DNA of 32,711 nucleotides from Chitinophagaceae bacterium (GTDB taxonomy: Bacteria; Bacteroidota; Bacteroidia; Chitinophagales; Chitinophagaceae). Location of the stretch: assembly GCA_947379895.1 (NCBI GenBank), contig CANCPA010000033.1, forward strand, positions 1 to 32,711. Reading direction: 5' to 3'. The notes beneath the pieces were generated by a model. The model saw only the letters and a list, made by a program, of their open reading frames with translations. It had not been told where the DNA came from and searched no databases. The translations under genes and the position numbers were made by a program. Below, piece by piece: positions 2,677-32,711 of the stretch (position 1 is its first letter; each line of letters starts with the position of its first letter).

Positions 2677-2755
2677 AAGAAATATCATTAATTGTGTTTA
2701 GAAGTTGTGAGTTATACGTTATAATTAAAAAAACAATTGACATATAAAGTGCATT

Positions 2756-3021
2756 GTTACTATTCAGGAGGTTTTACCACTAAGATCACAAAGTTATTTA
2801 CCAAGAAACACAAGGATTTAAGGGGTTTATATTCGCTTAATCTGTTTAAATTTTATGTTACTACTCAGGTATTTTTACCACAAGGGTCGCAAGGTTTTGA
2901 ACAAAGGAACACAAGTAACAATATACTTTTTAGGTACTTACCTGCCAATTATTTAAATAGAAGTCCTTGTGTCCCTTTTTTTTCTTTGATTTCCTTGTGG
3001 TAAAAGCTCCTGAGTAGAAAC
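2756..3021. repeat. Inverted-repeat element, TACTACTCAGG...TTTTACCAC family
   Basis: This 266-bp element fills most of the 483-bp gap between rluF and the ABC permease. Its left end GTTACTATTCAGGAGG (2756-2771) continues into TTTTACCACTAAG. Its right end is the inverse, GTGGTAAAAGCTCCTGAG to 3015, continuing to 3021. A second left-type end lies inside at 2857 (GTTACTACTCAGG followed by TTTTTACCACAAGG). The interior is degenerate ACAAAG/ACACAAGG words. Other copies are at 22216-22297 and, as a fragment, at 18314-18334. No transposase is present, so this would be a non-autonomous or structural repeat. Just before it, 2698-2724 carries a GTTGTGAGTTATACGTTATA word repeat. The rest of the gap (3022-3160) shows nothing I can name. 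Confidence 0.65.
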
Positions 3022-10433: not shown

Positions 10434-10818
10434 AGTTTTACGGGTGTATAAAAGTTTTTCGCTTACCATTACTAAACTACATTATCACCAATGTAGTTTA
10501 GTAATAATTTCCACACAGCTAAATTTATAAAATAGCTTTTTTTCAAATTGTTTTTCTAGTACTCGCTTTCTCACCAGTCCTTACATAAGCCACCTTAGGG
10601 CAATCTGCTTTCAGCGAAGCTGAAATTGAGAAAAATCCGTAGGATATTTTTCTCAAAAGGTTGAACGGAGTGGCGTTGTAAGGACGAAGCCTGCCGGCTC
10701 AGAGGCAAAAAAATCGAATAAATCCATATTCTAATCGGTTTGAACTTTTAGCTTTCATAAATCGAATTTATTTAGGTTTAATATTTTAAGCGAAAAACTT
10801 TTATGCACCCAGTTTTAC
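10434..10818. mobile_element. MITE-like element 1 with perfect 8-bp target duplication
   Basis: The element proper is 10442-10810 (369 bp). Its terminal inverted repeats, 10442-10465 and 10787-10810, match at 23 of 24 positions and read GGGTGTATAAAAGTTTTTCG inward from the left. The bases directly outside are identical direct repeats, AGTTTTAC at 10434-10441 and at 10811-10818, which is a target site duplication. There is no open frame inside large enough for a transposase, so it would be non-autonomous. The interior is highly structured: a perfect 16-bp hairpin (10468-10483 with 10490-10505) and a branched fold at 10577-10685. A relative with the same ends and its own 8-bp duplication is at 18501-18613. 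The autonomous partner is not in the window. Confidence 0.82.
10577..10685. other. Branched multi-hairpin structure inside MITE-like element 1
   Basis: An outer imperfect stem pairs 10577-10595 (GTCCTTACATAAGCCACCT) with 10667-10685 (GGAGTGGCGTTGTAAGGAC). Inside it, two hairpins stand next to each other. TTTCAGC/GCTGAAA at 10609-10625 has a GAA loop. TTGAGAAAAAT/ATTTTTCTCAA at 10626-10656 is perfect over 11 bp. The two share a boundary, so the whole would fold as a junction. It could be a structured RNA or a DNA cruciform tied to transposition. No expression signal is visible. Confidence 0.5.
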
Positions 10819-10825
10819 TGCTTTT

Positions 10826-11255
10826 TTTGCTGTTTTCTGATGATTCCTTACAGCTTTCAGATGATTCCTTATACCTTTTTTGTGATTCCTTATATATATA
10901 ACATACAAGCATCGTCATTTTGGTAGATTCCTTACAGTTTCCTCATGATTCCTTATACCTTTTGGTTGATTCCTTACAAAAAAAACATGCAAGCTTCATC
11001 ATGTTGGTATATCCGTTACAGGTTTTTCATGAGTTGATACAGGAAATAGATGGTCTCTTACACCTTTTTGATGAAGCTATACATAAGTCAAGTACATTCC
11101 TTAGGGTTTTCTGATGGTTCCTTACAGGAAATAGATAGTCTCTTACACCTTTTTGATGAAGCTATACATAAGTCAAGTACATTCCTTAGAGTTTTCTAAT
11201 GATTACTTATATGAATTCGGTGGATGCTTACACTTTTTGAATGATACTATATATA
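10826..11255. repeat. 21-bp tandem repeat array (minisatellite)
   Basis: About 19 degenerate units of roughly 21 bp fill this stretch. Read on the minus strand, the core is TAAGGAATCATCAGAAAAC preceded by TG or TA. The best units are at the left end. In one minus-strand frame they read as heptapeptides such as CKESSEN, YKESSES and CKESTKM, but stops interrupt the frame. A higher-order duplication is clear: the 85-bp block (about four units) starting at 11041 recurs at 11126 with only a few changes. The array lies exactly between MITE-like elements 1 and 2. It may be a decayed repeat-protein gene or a non-coding satellite. Confidence 0.75.
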
Positions 11256-11268
11256 TGTCAATTTCATT

Positions 11269-11370
11269 GGGAGCATAAAAATTATTTCGCTTATTCAGAA
11301 GCCGCCTACCTGACAGGTTTTCAAAACCTGTCAGGTATAATAAGATGAAAGCAAAAACTTTTATTCTCTC
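11269..11370. mobile_element. Decayed MITE-like element 2 carrying a 29-bp palindrome
   Basis: The left end GGGAGCATAAAAATTATTTCG starts at 11269 and the right end AAAAACTTTTATTCTCTC stops at 11370; both resemble the ends of the elements at 10442 and 18509 with several changes. The interior holds a perfect palindrome, ACCTGACAGGTTTT at 11308-11321 and its complement at 11323-11336, around a single C. The flanks (ATTTCATT and TATAATAT) do not match, so no target duplication survives. It lies about 65 bp upstream of the TonB-dependent receptor gene. Confidence 0.55.
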
Positions 11371-18500: not shown

Positions 18501-18613
18501 AAATAAATGGGTGCATAAAAGTTTTTCGAGTGGACACGCTGTGAGGCAGACTGCCGAGGTTCGTGTCTCTACGAAATTCTTTAAGCGAAAAGCTTTTATG
18601 CACCCAAATAAAT
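18501..18613. mobile_element. MITE-like element 3 (97 bp) with 8-bp target duplication
   Basis: The element proper is 18509-18605. The left end GGGTGCATAAAAGTTTTTCG (18509-18528) and the inverted right end (18586-18605) match at 19 of 20 positions. Outside them lie identical direct repeats AAATAAAT at 18501-18508 and 18606-18613. The interior has a GACACG/CGTGTC stem (18533-18538 with 18562-18567) enclosing GGCAG/CTGCC, so the whole folds into a long hairpin. It has the same ends as element 1 (10442-10810) but a different, shorter core. It is too short to encode anything. It sits about 60 bp past the stop codon of the DUF1501 gene. Confidence 0.8.
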
Positions 18614-19942: not shown

Positions 19943-19950
19943 GTTCTTCT

Positions 19951-20075
19951 AAGTTATGAGTGATAAGTTATGAGTGATAAGTTATGAGTTATGAGCGATG
20001 AGTTATAAGCGATGAGTGATGAATTGTGAGTTTTTAATTGAACAGAGCTTAATTTTTAACTCATCACTCATAACT
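19951..20075. repeat. AGTTATGAGTGATGAGT word repeat with hairpin
   Basis: Degenerate GTTATGAGTGATAA/GATGAGTTATAAGC units run from 19951 to about 20030. At 20059-20075 the inverse ACTCATCACTCATAACT occurs, pairing with the first unit at 16 of 17 positions. The words are the same as in 1855-1948. It fills the gap between the DUF1501 gene and the DUF1800 gene upstream. Confidence 0.65.
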
Positions 20076-20080
20076 AGATT

Positions 20081-22114
20081 TCACCTTCTTTGAAATTCAG
20101 GCGAGCCAATGATAATTCCTGCCACTTGAGATAGCATATTATTATTATTTGCTGCCATACTATTCAAAGATGCTTGTTTATTATTGTTTAATTCATTCTT
20201 CTTCGTTGCGTCCTTACTTTTCGAATCATTCTTTACCCCTGAATCCATCATAGTCATCATCATATCGTTGCCCATAGCAGGATGTTCAGGTTCATTTTTA
20301 ACTGCCTTTCCTGCTGCCGCAATCTTATTGCTTAATTGTGGGTCATTTACTAATGGCATCAATCTATTTACCGTTTCTTTTACATCCCTTTCGGGTAATA
20401 ATAATTTGCAATAAGTAGTCAAGGCCGCCTCCATACTTTCAGGTTCATGATGATTATTCAATGCCGCTAAGTTGAATGTTAAACCAGGAATCTTCTGATT
20501 TGCTAGTGCCAAACCAAAATTCATCCTATTTAATAGCGATCCTGTATTTATCCAATATTGTGCCCTGTCGGGAAATCCTGTAGGTGCTTGATAATGATAC
20601 ATCTTTTCGCCCATTCTGCTTATCCAACTAAATAATTGATAGGGCTGCGTAACCTTTGCATTCAATGCCCTTATTGTACTGATAGTTAATTCGAAAGGAG
20701 ATTTAATTTTTTCCCTCAATGAATTTTTGCTCCAAAATTCTGGCGATGCTACCATTGTTGTCAATACTTGCCTGATATCGCCATCCTGTTTCAAAAAAGT
20801 GGTGGCCATCTTTTCAATTAAATCCTTCGAAGGATTGTCGCTCACAAACCGCACAGCCAATTTCTTACAAATAAAATGAGCCGTAGAATTGTGGTGTGCA
20901 AGCATTGTAATTAATTTCTTCCCTTCATCAACGCCCCCTTTCACCGGGAAAGTATTGCCAAGCACCACCTTTTCAGTTTGGTCGTGTTTATTAACAGCAA
21001 ACATGAAATCGCCATCATGAACATATCCTTGTTCTGTTAATTTCTCAATGCCCACTTTGTCAATCATTTTTTGGATGCCTTGCAAGCCTTGATTGTCATT
21101 CATAGGAAAGATTGTCCAACCCGTCAATACCTTTGCAGCATTCGTTACATCTGTTTGTGTATAGCCTCCATCCACACCGAGCGTATGCAATTCCATTATT
21201 TCACGCGCATAATTCTCATTCAATCCCTGAAGGTTCTTTAGGTAATTGATTTTATTTCCTAAGTCTTTAAACTTACTTCCTGTATCTCCCTTAGCCCGCA
21301 TTTGTTGTTGCTGCTGATATAAGTCTTTCAAATTTTTCGCAACCACCTCAGGTCCTTGATTATTCATACTTGCCACACTCCTAAAGTTGTCGAGATAAGT
21401 TAACATGGCAGGCGATTTTGCAGTAGCTGCTAATAAATCCTCAAACTTACCCAATGAATTTGGTCTGATGACATCCTTTTCATAGCAAATAACATAATTA
21501 GTAGAATTATCTTTCGTAACATCTACATTAAAATGGTTGTACCAAAAGCTCGTCATCACCTCTTGCAATTGATTGTTAGTTGATGCTGAACGAATAATTT
21601 TTTGGCCAATCAATTGTCTTACTACTTCCTGTTGCTGTTTGAATCCCCTTTCTTTCATAAAGGAATCAATTTGAGCCTTGTGATTTTTATATTCAAAATG
21701 AAGAGCTGAATCTTTTGGAACAACCCCTTCTTTAATAGCCAAATTTATCAATTGACCACTATTCAAATACGTATTAATCAGTTGTTTGTTGTTCAAGTTA
21801 AGCGTTTCGTAAGGTGCAAGTGCCACATTTAGCGAATCATCGGGCAGATTTGCGGCTAACTGTTGTTCAAACCATTTTACCAACCCCATCTTTACTACTT
21901 CATCAATTTGATTAGGCGTTGTTCCAAAAGTAAAACGACTCAATAAATGTGCTGCTGCCTGTCGTTCAGTGAGTCCTGCCCTTTTAAAAGGAAATTTTAA
22001 TGAACTTAGGCTATCAGAGCTGTCGTTAATAATGAAAGAAGATAAAACCGGAACTATTCCGATTAGGAAAAATAATATGAATACAACCGAAGAATATTTT
22101 TTCATGCCAAACAA
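20081..22114 (-). CDS. DUF1800 protein, downstream paralog
   Basis: This 677-residue DUF1800-family protein (function unknown) has an N-terminal signal segment (about 4-26, SSVVFILFFLIGIVPVLSSF). The start of the family domain is AAHLLSRFTFGTTPNQIDEV (about 54-73). In the middle LNENYAREIMELHTLGVDGG is the DUF1800 signature, and the end has SPFELTISTIRALNA and QAPTGFPDRAQYWINTGSLL. A low-complexity Met/Asn/Lys-rich stretch (about 620-665) precedes the terminal IIIGSPEFQRR. It is a tandem paralog of the next gene upstream, similar along its whole length and ending in the same residues. The homologous start would be the internal ATG at 22105 (MKKYSS) rather than 22114. Its stop codon is about 140 bp before the DUF1501 start. 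Confidence 0.9.
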   Translation of the reverse strand: MFGMKKYSSVVFILFFLIGIVPVLSSFIINDSSDSLSSLKFPFKRAGLTERQAAAHLLSRFTFGTTPNQIDEVVKMGLVKWFEQQLAANLPDDSLNVALAPYETLNLNNKQLINTYLNSGQLINLAIKEGVVPKDSALHFEYKNHKAQIDSFMKERGFKQQQEVVRQLIGQKIIRSASTNNQLQEVMTSFWYNHFNVDVTKDNSTNYVICYEKDVIRPNSLGKFEDLLAATAKSPAMLTYLDNFRSVASMNNQGPEVVAKNLKDLYQQQQQMRAKGDTGSKFKDLGNKINYLKNLQGLNENYAREIMELHTLGVDGGYTQTDVTNAAKVLTGWTIFPMNDNQGLQGIQKMIDKVGIEKLTEQGYVHDGDFMFAVNKHDQTEKVVLGNTFPVKGGVDEGKKLITMLAHHNSTAHFICKKLAVRFVSDNPSKDLIEKMATTFLKQDGDIRQVLTTMVASPEFWSKNSLREKIKSPFELTISTIRALNAKVTQPYQLFSWISRMGEKMYHYQAPTGFPDRAQYWINTGSLLNRMNFGLALANQKIPGLTFNLAALNNHHEPESMEAALTTYCKLLLPERDVKETVNRLMPLVNDPQLSNKIAAAGKAVKNEPEHPAMGNDMMMTMMDSGVKNDSKSKDATKKNELNNNKQASLNSMAANNNNMLSQVAGIIIGSPEFQRR

Positions 22115-22157
22115 ATTTATGTACTAACGACTCTTGTTTTAAGTTGCAGTTGACTAT

Positions 22158-22182
22158 GTCAAAGTGACAAAGTTTAAACCGA
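22158..22182 (-). promoter_or_regulatory. Conserved upstream block of the downstream DUF1800 gene
   Basis: TCAAAGTGACAAAGTTTAAA (with one more match on either side) is nearly the same as the block at 24353-24377 upstream of the paralog. A short GTTGACTA motif also lies at the same distance beside both. Conservation at both copies suggests a shared promoter or operator duplicated with the gene. No exact TAnnTTTG box is present on the minus strand; the closest is CACTTTG/TACTTTG. Confidence 0.4.
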
Positions 22183-22215
22183 TTAATAGTAGTCTATCCT
22201 TCTCACCGATTTTAT

Positions 22216-22297
22216 GTTGCTACTCAATTATTTTTACCACAATTGTCATAAGGTTTTCTCATTGTTTCCCTTGTGTTAAATCCTTCTGAGTAGTAAC
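22216..22297. repeat. Compact copy of the TACTACTCAG inverted-repeat family
   Basis: This 82-bp element starts GTTGCTACTCAATTATTTTT and ends with the inverse CTTCTGAGTAGTAAC. The outer 11 bases pair with one mismatch, followed inward by TTTTACCACAA against TTGTGTTAAA. It lies in the 190-bp gap between the two DUF1800 genes and could fold as a hairpin in the transcript. It shares its ends with 2756-3021. Confidence 0.6.
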
Positions 22298-22304
22298 ATT
22301 GTTT

Positions 22305-24311
22305 TTATCTTCTCTGAAATTCAGGCGAACCAATGATGATACCCGTCACCTGATTAATCATCGAATTGCTACCCACTTTCGACTGCATTTGAGTGATTGA
22401 CGATTCCTCATTTTTGTCCTTTCCTTTCTTTCCTTTTTTTGCATCATTCGTAGTCATCATTTCATCACCGGTCATCGTCTGACCCATTTGTGGTGAAACC
22501 GCTTTACCTGCCGCAGCATCCACCTTATCATGAATTTGAGGGTCATTGATGAGTGGTGTCAATCGCTTGACAGTTTCAGTCACATTCCTTTCGGGCATCA
22601 ATATTTTGCAATAAGTAGTTAAAGCTGCCTCTGTACTTTCAGGTTCATGATTGTTATTGAGTGCCGCCAAATTGAACGTTACGCCAGGAATTCTTTGTGA
22701 TGCCAAAGCCAAACCAAAATTCATCCTATTCAATAAGGAACCTGTATTAATCCAATATTTCGCCCTATCGGGAAATCCTGTAGGTGCCTGATAATAATAT
22801 ATCCGTTCTCCCATTTTGTTTATCCAATTCGCCAATTGATAAGGTTGTGCTATTCCAGCATTCAAAGCTCTAACTGTACTGACAGTCAATTCAAATGGTG
22901 ATTTAATTTTTTCCCTAATAGCCTCCTTACTCCAAAATTCAGGTGCATTCACCATCGTCAATATTACCTGTTTGATATCGCCATCGTTATTTAAAAAAGT
23001 GTTTGCCATTTTCTCAATTAAGGTAGTAGGTGGATTGTCACAAACAAAATGAACGGCCAATTTCTTGGAAATAAAATGTGCCGTTGACGAATGATGTGCC
23101 AACATGTCTAACAGCCTTACTCCTTCTTCATAGCCTTCATTTGCAGGGAACTTCTTACCAAGAATAGTCTTTTCTGTTTTGTCATGTTTATTTGGGGTAA
23201 ACATAAAGTCACCATCATGTACAAATCCCTGCTGTTTAAGTTTATCCTCACCTACCCGTTCAATTAGTTTTGTCATAAAATCTTTGCCTCCATACATTTC
23301 CTGCATCGGAAATATTGTCCATCCTGTCAAGACTTTAGCAGCATTTGTGACATCGCTTTGAGTATAGCCTCCATCAACACCCAAAGTGTGTAGTTCCATT
23401 ACTTCACGAGCATAATTTTCGTTGAGACCTTGCGCCTTTTGCGACTTCTTTATTTTTTCAATCACATCCTTAAATTGCTGACTCGTGTCGCCACTATTGC
23501 GCAATTCAAGTTGTTTGGCATAAAGTTCCCGCAATCGTTTGGCCCCCGCTTCATTTGCCACAGAACCCGATTCGTTAGCCACACTCCTGAAGTTATCCAA
23601 ATAAGTAAGCATTGCCGGCGACTTAGCTGTTGCCAATAAGATCGAGCCAAACTTTCCTAAGGCATTAGGACGTATTTCATTTTTTTCATAACAGGTAACA
23701 AAATGAATACAATCTTTTTTGGTCAGGGAAACATTAAAATGATTGAACCAAAAACCCGTCATTACCTCCTGCAACTGATTATTTGAATAGGCAGCACGCA
23801 AAATCTTTTGATTAATCAATTGTCTGATTAATTCTCTTTCAGGTTTCAAGCCATTTGCCTTCATATAAGCTTCTAACTGTGCCCGATTTGCTTTTTTATC
23901 AAATTGTCCGGTATCCTTTTCAAGTTTCCCTTCCTTTATTGCCTTCCTCAAAATTTGTTGGTTATTGCGGGGAAATGTATTTACAATTTCTTTATTTTTC
24001 ATGGACAAAGTTTCATAATCGCTTAACATCGCATTTAAGGAATCATCGGGTTGATTCGCTTGTAGTTGTTGCTGCAACCAATTTTCCAAACCCATCTTCA
24101 CCACTTCGTCTATTTGGTTAGGAGTAGCCCCGTAAGTAAAACGACTCAACAGATGTGCAGCTGCTTGACGTTCGGATAGTCCTGCCTTTTTATAGGGAAA
24201 CTTTATGATTGGATTATTAGAGTTACTATCAGTACTAGTAAAAGAAGATAGAAAAGGTATTGCTCCTATAAATAAAAGAAATAGTAATATGACCGATGAA
24301 ATCTTTTTCAT
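22305..24311 (-). CDS. DUF1800 protein, upstream paralog
   Basis: This 668-residue DUF1800-family protein is the first gene of a three-gene minus-strand set (DUF1800, DUF1800, DUF1501). It has a signal segment (1-24, MKKISSVILLFLLFIGAIPF). The family domain starts AAHLLSRFTYGATPNQIDEV (about 50-69) and the signature is LNENYAREVMELHTLGVDGG. SPFELTVSTVRALNAGIAQP and QAPTGFPDRAKYWINTGSLL follow, then a Lys-rich linker (KKGKKGKDKNEES) and the terminal IIIGSPEFQRR. It differs from its paralog mainly in the linker and in the region after the signal peptide. The start is clear, and the gene is complete. Function is unknown; export to the periplasm or cell surface is inferred from the signal. Confidence 0.9.
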   Translation of the reverse strand: MKKISSVILLFLLFIGAIPFLSSFTSTDSNSNNPIIKFPYKKAGLSERQAAAHLLSRFTYGATPNQIDEVVKMGLENWLQQQLQANQPDDSLNAMLSDYETLSMKNKEIVNTFPRNNQQILRKAIKEGKLEKDTGQFDKKANRAQLEAYMKANGLKPERELIRQLINQKILRAAYSNNQLQEVMTGFWFNHFNVSLTKKDCIHFVTCYEKNEIRPNALGKFGSILLATAKSPAMLTYLDNFRSVANESGSVANEAGAKRLRELYAKQLELRNSGDTSQQFKDVIEKIKKSQKAQGLNENYAREVMELHTLGVDGGYTQSDVTNAAKVLTGWTIFPMQEMYGGKDFMTKLIERVGEDKLKQQGFVHDGDFMFTPNKHDKTEKTILGKKFPANEGYEEGVRLLDMLAHHSSTAHFISKKLAVHFVCDNPPTTLIEKMANTFLNNDGDIKQVILTMVNAPEFWSKEAIREKIKSPFELTVSTVRALNAGIAQPYQLANWINKMGERIYYYQAPTGFPDRAKYWINTGSLLNRMNFGLALASQRIPGVTFNLAALNNNHEPESTEAALTTYCKILMPERNVTETVKRLTPLINDPQIHDKVDAAAGKAVSPQMGQTMTGDEMMTTNDAKKGKKGKDKNEESSITQMQSKVGSNSMINQVTGIIIGSPEFQRR

Positions 24312-31481: not shown

Positions 31482-31852
31482 TTACCACAATGTTCACAAG
31501 GGTTACTACAAGGAACACTAAGCTTTTATTTTCTTACCACAATGTTCACAAGGGAATTACAAGGAACACTAAGGTTTTATTTGTTTTACCACTAGGTTCA
31601 CAAGGAAAAAACTATGAACACTAAGTATTATTTTTTATTTACCACTAAGTTCACAAGGAAGAAACTACGAAAACTAAGTATTATTTTTATTTACCACTAA
31701 GTTCGCAAGGAAGAATCAAAGGAAACTAAGTTATTTAATACAAAATATACCTTGTGTTCCTTGTATTTTATCCTTTTTTTCATTGTGGTAAATTCTTTTT
31801 TATAAATAATCCTTGTGTTCCTTGTGATTTTTCCTTGTGATCCTCGTGGTAA
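31482..31852. repeat. 52-bp tandem array plus two inverted units between fucI and fucP
   Basis: Five direct units start with TTACCAC at 31482, 31534, 31586, 31639 and 31691, a period of 52-53 bp. Each reads about TTACCACTAAGTTCACAAGG and ends in ACACTAAG and a T-rich run. Two inverted units follow, ending in GTGGTAA at 31785-31791 and 31846-31852 (period 61). Direct and inverted units would pair into a large hairpin. Words such as TTTTACCACAAGG are shared with 2756-3021 and 22216-22297. The array fills almost the whole 392-bp gap inside the operon. Confidence 0.8.
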
Positions 31853-31856
31853 AAAA

Positions 31857-32711
31857 CTATTTATACAATGAACCGTAATTGGCACAAGCACGGAAATCTG
31901 CACCCTCTGATTCCTGACCAAATGCAGACCATGCACTAGGACGGAAAATCTTATTCTCATCCACATTATGCATACAAACAGGAATACGAAGCATTGATGC
32001 CAACGTAATCAAGTCCGCACCAATATGTCCATAACTGATTGCACCATGATTTGCACCCCAATTTGCCATTACAGAATAAATATCCTTGAAGGCACCCTTG
32101 CCTGTAACATTTGGCACAAACCAAGTGGTAGGCCATGTTTCGTTGGTACGCTTATTGATTTTATCATGTACATCAGCAGGAATATCAACACTATAACCCT
32201 CAGCCAATTGCAAAACAGGCCCTTGACCCTTTACCAAATTGATTCTTGCCATTGTCATCGGCATGCCACCTTTAGAGAGGTATTCTGAAGAGAAACCACC
32301 TCCACGGAAGTATTCTGTAACTGCAGGATACCAGGTAGTAGCATCCAAACAAGCCTTTGCTTCCTCGGCAGTGATGTCGTAATAAGGTTTCATACCAGGT
32401 TTGCCATCAATGTTTTGTTGACCTGTACCATCTAAGGTAGCAGAACCTGAATTAATCAAGTGCAGCAATCCATTCGCAGCATCACCTTCCAATTTTCTTC
32501 CTGCCACTTTTTCTAGTGCATTCGGACTCCAATAGGTTCTGACATCAGCAAATATCTGAGCCGTATTCGTCAATAAATGACCAAACAACATCGTTACGCC
32601 GTTCAATGCATCGTTTTCTGTAGCCACCATATATGCTTGACGGATACCATTCCAATCGAACGATGAATTTAGGATTGCTTCCAAGAAATCACCATTAGGA
32701 GAGTGGTCAGT
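31857..32711 (-). CDS. fucI: L-fucose isomerase, C-terminal part (cut by the window edge)
   Basis: FucI converts L-fucose to L-fuculose with Mn2+. The frame is open to the last base of the window, so only the C-terminal 284 residues of a protein of about 590 are seen; the ATG at 32684 is internal. The visible start [20 protein letters not shown] matches the middle of E. coli Fuc[59 protein letters not shown] and the terminal [16 protein letters not shown] match its C-terminal half. It stands first among the visible genes of the operon, so the promoter and any regulator (FucR/GntR type) should lie past the right edge. Confidence 0.93.

Follow-up and report, generated by a model that had tools for sequence, protein, structure and literature searches.

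The window analysed here, i.e. the whole 32,711-bp stretch of Chitinophagaceae DNA, carries elements that we interpret, with a probability of about 0.8, as MITEs mobilised by an ISKra4-type transposase and having interchangeable interiors, the interior of element 1 carrying a structured domain that is found also without these ends. Elements 1 and 2 are non-autonomous MITEs with ends of about 23 bp (GGGTGCATAAAAGTTTTTCGCTT) and 8-bp target duplications. Element 1 (10442-10810, 369 bp) lies between a left terminal inverted repeat at 10442-10465 (+ strand, GGGTGTATAAAAGTTTTTCGCTTA) and a right one at 10787-10810 (- strand, TAAGCGAAAAACTTTTATGCACCC), which match at 23 of 24 positions; the initial annotation was thus right about inverted repeats but not in calling them perfect, since they differ by a single T/C mismatch at position 6. 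The 8-bp duplication that it proposed was read on both sides as AGTTTTAC (10434-10441, with an exact copy at 10811-10818). Folding places a hairpin with a perfect 16-bp stem next to the left end (10468-10505), and copies L006 and L030 have A-T in place of C-G in this stem, both arms having changed. Element 2 (18509-18605, 97 bp) is a short MITE whose ends match at 19 of 20 positions and, as had been claimed, has the same ends as element 1 with a different duplication (AAATAAAT, at 18501-18508 and 18606-18613). The interiors of the two elements are unrelated and the ends alone are common to both. A third, decayed element of 102 bp (11269-11370) has the same ends with 5 mismatches each and flanks agreeing at 2 of 8 positions, i.e. 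without a target duplication, and contains a palindrome copy (GACCTGACAGGTTTT..AAAACCTGTCAGGTC) at 11307-11337. According to the list of open reading frames, element 1 is intergenic between a 1874-aa CHU_C-tailed protein and a CarbopepD/plug protein, and element 2 is intergenic between a response regulator and a DUF1501 gene.

The window holds several other repeats. A tandem array of 84-85-bp units (GATTCCTTAC... / GTACATTCCTTAG...) occupies 10842-11261, immediately right of element 1, and similar DNA was seen in genome G009 and at other places in the own genome. At 31523-31864, successive repeats of 52-53 bp (ACCACTAAGTTCACAAGGAA) lead into a 61-bp repeat that has an inverted partner, and similar pieces were seen at 2749-3021 and 22209-22299; a 14-bp tandem repeat (TAAGTTATGAGTGA) is intergenic at 19950-20033; and two adjoining DUF1800 genes at 20081-24311 are 78% identical in DNA over stretches.

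The 20-base end GGGTGCATAAAAGTTTTTCG was found four times in the window with at most 3 mismatches, and never in 100 shuffles. Over the whole genome (a draft of 5.3 Mb in 401 contigs) the same threshold yielded 115 ends (51 forward and 64 reverse), against 0 when the pattern was read backwards; loci L001-L070 cover all but two of the genome places listed for this end. Copies of element 1 matching over at least 208 bp at 88-100% identity were present at 11 places (itself included), 6 of them end to end. Among 59 sampled genomes, ends with at most 2 mismatches occurred in 11, namely 10 of the 13 of the genus (the own genome included) and one other with a single match.

To assess target duplications, we compared the flanks of paired ends with a null in which right flanks were re-dealt among pairs 2000 times. 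In the own genome, the 42 paired elements had flanks agreeing at 8/8 positions in 11 cases, at 7/8 or more in 15 and at 6/8 or more in 18, with null means of 0.28 (8/8) and 0.40 (at least 7/8) and maxima of 3 and 4. For 33 pairs at sister-species loci the corresponding counts were 15 (8/8) and 18 (at least 7/8), with null means of 0.43 and 0.57 and maxima of 4 and 4. A duplication length of 8 fits because the ninth flank base agrees in only 4 of the 11 own and 2 of the 15 sister exact pairs. The genome search that the initial annotation had suggested, for the 20-bp end together with its flanking 8-mers, therefore bore out its claim of one non-autonomous family with independent insertions, both by the number of ends over the backward control and by the excess of exact duplications. 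Copies without duplications, which it had named as evidence against the family, do exist (in 24 of the 42 own pairs the flanks match at less than 6 of the 8 positions) but are outweighed by the excess of exact pairs. One of these, L002, carries the flanks of two other copies and so represents recombination or misassembly; at least 9 are fragments of larger units, having one inner flank in common (TTAAAATA or GAATTATT); the remaining ones are unexplained or diverged.

The genomes are drafts in which repeats break contigs. Ends were also joined across different loci by their flanking 8-mers, using only exact matches because at one mismatch the control count (11) equalled the real one (11). This yielded 7 joins: IS ends L001/L026, long copies L012/L038, L002/L044 and L002/L005, and larger units. 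Letter shuffles averaged 0.69 such joins (at most 4), and the three controls had 0, 1 and 0. Of the larger units, two (L010/L058 and L037/L049) combine a left end of the hairpin type with an IS right end, and one (L020/L024, common 8-mer CACCAAAG) contains a Y1 transposase ORF (PF01797) and REP-like palindromes. We also observed that L020, L021 and L025 (own-genome contigs C240, C267 and C363) carry a Y1/RAYT-like gene with palindromes TTCCGTAGGAACG bounded by one such end, the ORF having been read in L020 and L025, and that the contig starts of L033, L037 and L051 have in common a repeat beginning ORF MGTEKVANVYTVKVSKSFESDGKLGVYEPSFRR, which may mark where another repeated element ends.

The comparison with empty sites, also suggested by the initial annotation, gave no clean one in related genomes. 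The joined flanks of the insertion between the response regulator and the DUF1501 gene, searched in sister genomes, matched the DUF1501 gene in 9 of them, in loci of 2.1-3.2 kb with no family end at 4 mismatches; these are not clean empty sites because the match ends at the gene and the response-regulator neighbour was not found there. Element 1 had no match in plasmid and phage records, and viral contigs held 0 exact matches to the end pattern and 0 to a core pattern.

Directly inside these ends we found C-terminal pieces of one transposase (97, 102 and 41 aa). Taken alone, the pieces score weakly as ISKra4 (21.6 and 23.8 bits, cut-off 205). In the own genome an end lies directly behind an ISKra4-type C-terminus at L007, L037 and L026, and the right end L026 pairs with the left end L001, on another contig, via the identical 8-mer TTCCATAT. 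A copy in G011, of the same genus (L100), encodes a 346-aa ORF whose stop codon lies 3 bases before the 20-base end and which matches NF033572 (ISKra4) with an E-value of 3.3e-54 and 184.6 bits, below the curated cut-off of 205, covering profile positions 70-422 and leaving about 70 N-terminal positions uncovered. The 71-aa ORF upstream of it, in another frame, matched no family; the left end of this copy is absent, the contig ending there. In G002, a decayed copy of 855 bp (L102) retains both ends, with 3 and 5 mismatches, enclosing N- and C-terminal transposase pieces with stops; it has no target duplication. A relative in G090, of another family, has 38% identity and was the sole match among 395 phylum genomes at 1e-20; it is 1304 bp long, with ends GGGTGCAT..ATGCACCC (longer reading GGGTGCATTTCAAAA / TTTTGAAATGCACCC) and flanks without duplication.

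Because the same ends bound ISKra4-family transposase pieces, the helper is most likely an ISKra4/ISMich2-type IS, an assignment made from the shared ends. ISKra4-family ends typically start with GGG, as do the ends described here. The ISMich2 group of the ISKra4 family is placed in p-MULT4, of the Mutator superfamily, and a conserved -1 frameshift is described for ISMich2 (PMC3942029). The present elements resemble this group in a match to the NF033572 profile, although below its curated cut-off, in the GGG-starting ends, in the 8-bp duplications of the MITEs and in two ORFs that meet at an A-run: those of the G090 relative (L162) meet at ten A's, fitting a -1 shift, and the decayed L102 also fits -1. 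They differ in that L100, with nine A's, needs a +1 shift or a one-base length change, and in that the genus has no intact copy. The initial annotation had asked for an IS with the same ends, and ISKra4-type pieces do lie behind them, but an intact helper with both ends was not found in the own or sister genomes. Of the helper pieces in the own genome, two are truncated where contigs end, another belongs to a rearranged unit and a fourth is an N-terminus at a contig end. The contigs are apparently size-sorted and the last and smallest (C401) has 3005 bases, so shorter contigs bearing an intact IS may have been dropped. We propose that an ISKra4-family DDE transposase (p-MULT4, probably ISMich2-like) would cut and join the MITE ends in trans.

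Element 1 carries, at 10569-10711 on the + strand, a structured domain of about 144 nt (models R1 and R2), whose folding z is -5.6 for the + strand against -4.4 for the opposite one. A search of the window against Rfam gave no match reaching the gathering score; at E of 10 or less there were six sub-threshold matches in the window, none over the domain, and at E of 1 or less there were none for eight other core loci. When 14 copies were aligned with MAFFT, 98.2% of cells were paired, and compensatory changes occurred in 10 of the 44 pairs (shuffle mean 4.3, reached in 0/500). In an alignment of 50 matches (44 distinct rows), which leans to the model it was fitted to, 42 of the 44 pairs show compensatory changes (shuffle mean 26.8), with 439 compensatory cells against 121.8 in shuffles (0/500) and 95% of cells pairing against 71.8% in shuffled and 36-53% in slid controls. 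The + strand is probably the folded one, because G.U cells number 92 (one pair supplying 38 of them) and A.C cells 16; pairs with any G.U number 24, and those with any A.C 11.

Using R1, we detected the domain in 8 of 13 genus genomes and in 22 of 195 family genomes, representing 19 of 101 genera, with at most 14 copies per genome. With R2, under stricter filters that lose weak matches, 4 of 395 phylum genomes were positive: the own genome, two of the family and G201, from another family. Flanking inverted repeats beyond shuffles were present at 5 of the 6 loci chosen within the genus. The 26 loci tested from 19 genomes outside the genus had no flanking inverted repeats exceeding all 100 shuffles within 120-140 bases, one of them, L218, standing at 0.04. 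Most copies lie between genes, with 44 of 49 loci free of overlap with any mechanical ORF of at least 100 aa, and in 29 of 41 cases the first ORF downstream runs in the same direction. The copies aligned from G451 and G564 are for the most part alike in little else than the domain, though some have common flanks, and in G602 a longer unit is common to eight domain copies. G201, from another family of the class, has six domain matches in one orientation close to a contig end, spanning about 6.2 kb (contig C14, L273, 4902-11104). In G606 (contig C221, L276, 2049-4328), four matches of 28 to 112 bits lie on one strand around an IS110-family transposase gene; an IS110 bridge-RNA reading was considered and dropped. 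In the open-access literature we found no paper on a Chitinophagaceae structured RNA or on Chitinophaga MITEs.

By its fold and location, the domain is probably a structured intergenic repeat similar to ERIC/RU elements, acting at the RNA or single-strand level, and may have a regulatory or recombination role. An unlikely but serious competitor is that the core is a folded single-stranded DNA site or hairpin whose covariation stems from arm-to-arm correction of palindromes and not from RNA. This would suit the dispersed, mostly intergenic copies, the one-orientation clusters in some genomes and stem sequences that are genome-specific (near-uniform, being common to nearly all of 21 aligned copies from three genomes), and RAYT transposases are described as acting on single-stranded REPs (PMC3733652). 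Against it, conserved unpaired segments and a branched fold exceed the needs of a hairpin; the excess of G.U over A.C cells marks one folded strand and fits RNA or one DNA strand equally.

To compare interiors, we clustered the 75 paired elements at a threshold of 0.38 (shuffle maximum 0.26), resulting in 8 distinct sequence classes of 25, 17, 14, 9, 6, 2, 1 and 1 members, element 2 belonging to the commonest. Duplications of at least 7/8 were found in 13, 2, 7, 7 and 4 copies of the first five classes, respectively. Lengths inside a class are for the most part constant to within a few bases, apart from outliers such as a length of 215 in one class. In the own genome, 7 places have the palindrome of the third element; at 3 of them it is enclosed by the ends, one pair of which is decayed, and at the other 4 it has no ends. 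The family is therefore defined by its ends and not by its interiors, since interiors are unrelated and a palindrome occurs outside the ends. The ends tolerate varied interiors: eight sequence classes, six of them with at least 2 members, lie between the same ends and were presumably acquired by capture. The lengths of short elements with unrelated interiors concentrate at 91-93 and at 102-104 bp, a difference of about one helical turn that could reflect phasing of both ends; the length vector is 0.946 at 10.5 bp (p of about 0.001 against uniform lengths), in a post hoc test in which periods of 10 and 11 give 0.93 and 0.94 and the classes are perhaps not independent.

It is improbable that the elements are instead internal-deletion derivatives of ISKra4-type IS with ordinary interiors. 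In favour of it, IS sequence is kept in L058/L010 and L037/L049, and the decayed IS L102 bears a deletion. However, inspection by eye showed no likeness to either IS end in the interiors of element 1 and the short classes, and these interiors are also unlike one another; the palindrome just described occurs in four places without ends, and the core is found in other genera, at the 26 tested loci without flanking inverted repeats.

That element 1 is no more than a long MITE with an interior that folds by chance, its likeness to sister copies being a meaningless shared repeat, seems very improbable: MITEs usually fold well, and folding z is -9.2 for element 1 and -6.3 and -5.6 for element 2, but the compensatory changes exceed both shuffles and slid controls and domain matches reach 19 genera of the family. 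As for recombination sites of the attC or cassette type, which bear AAC/GTT outer triplets, we consider this origin of the core to be just as remote. The one-orientation clusters (6 matches in the G201 cluster, 4 in G556, and others in G564, G606, G451 and G569) speak for it; against it, the core has no such triplets by eye, the G556 cluster consists of four near-identical tandem units at 254-bp spacing, and other copies are solitary and in mixed orientation relative to genes.

Our preferred reading, that of a structured domain carried between mobile ends, extends to the sister species. The domain occurs in other genera without the ends of element 1, and in sister species between other ends. 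Six sister genomes have the middle part of element 1 without the rest of it, in most cases at 82-90% identity, and the domain copies there sit between the ends CAGGGCAAACGCATATAAATTT (CAGGGCAAACGC...) with duplications of 9-10 bp. Among 50 loci examined, some of them the same place, 15 copies had both CAGGGC-type ends at 7 or fewer mismatches; 13 of these are 264-291 bp long (the others 228 and 255), 8 of the 15 being 264-268 bp. By reading, duplications of 9-10 bp were exact in 8 of the 15, agreed at 8-9/10 in 3 and were lacking in 4. Because both end types carry the domain, a structured intergenic element appears to have become the cargo of two MITE families. A diverged CAGGG...CCCTG copy was also seen by eye in the own genome (contig C97).

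Element 1 likely arose by nested capture of such a cargo element, a history with moderate support from sequence comparison. Its 369 bp are approximately the combined length of a cargo element of 264-268 bp with its duplication and of a short MITE of 92-103 bp, which would place an inner, formerly CAGGGC-type element with decayed ends at about 10514-10786 (boundaries approximate), inside a short MITE. On the left, the arm of element 1 is similar to those of sister elements (at best 0/300 single-base shuffles; 0.02 or less in 6 of 9 copies), and the right arm resembles sister right arms at less than 0.05 in only 2 of 9 copies. Compared with the known short classes, the outer part of element 1 matched none that stands out. 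Most likely, the cargo element would have inserted into a short GGGTGC MITE and the compound would then have amplified as one unit of about 370 bp.

Several known systems invite comparison. Correia/NEMIS, RUP and ERIC are described (PMC2229807) as bacterial MITEs that are short, non-coding and multicopy, with inverted ends and target duplications. The present elements share all of these features, and differ in the 8-bp duplication and in one end pair common to eight interior classes. The same paper gives ERIC/IRU/RU-1 and YPAL/RU-2 as intergenic, 127-168 bp long and stably folding. Likened by description, the 144-nt core agrees with ERIC/RU in size, intergenic location, stable fold and scattering over related bacteria, and departs from them in having no Rfam match, a branched modelled fold of 44 pairs and two kinds of transposon ends in one genus. 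REP/RAYT palindromes and TIRtrons (PMC3733652) are likewise palindromic intergenic repeats, and a Y1 ORF is present in the unit L020/L025; unlike theirs, mobility here leaves 8-bp duplications at inverted ends, a trait suggestive of a DDE enzyme and not of tyrosine-transposase chemistry.

In plant Pack-MULEs, Mutator-superfamily ends enclose unrelated captured DNA. The elements described here similarly have Mutator-superfamily ends around unrelated DNA, which may likewise have been captured, and are distinguished by being bacterial and by a cargo that is palindromic or structured and does not consist of gene fragments. We tentatively suggest, at somewhat less than even odds, a bacterial counterpart of Pack-MULEs, in which ISKra4-type ends repeatedly take up unrelated structured DNA, including an undescribed Chitinophagaceae RNA family of about 144 nt carried on at least two transposon families that differ in ends and duplication lengths.

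Fixed transposon ends with varying cargo in bacteria make the origins of MITE interiors open to study across close species. The domain adds a covarying structured element without an Rfam match, present in 19 of 101 sampled genera of one family. If it acts as RNA, it would be a candidate regulator partly spread by transposons, and if it acts as single-stranded DNA, it would be a new sort of dispersed palindrome.
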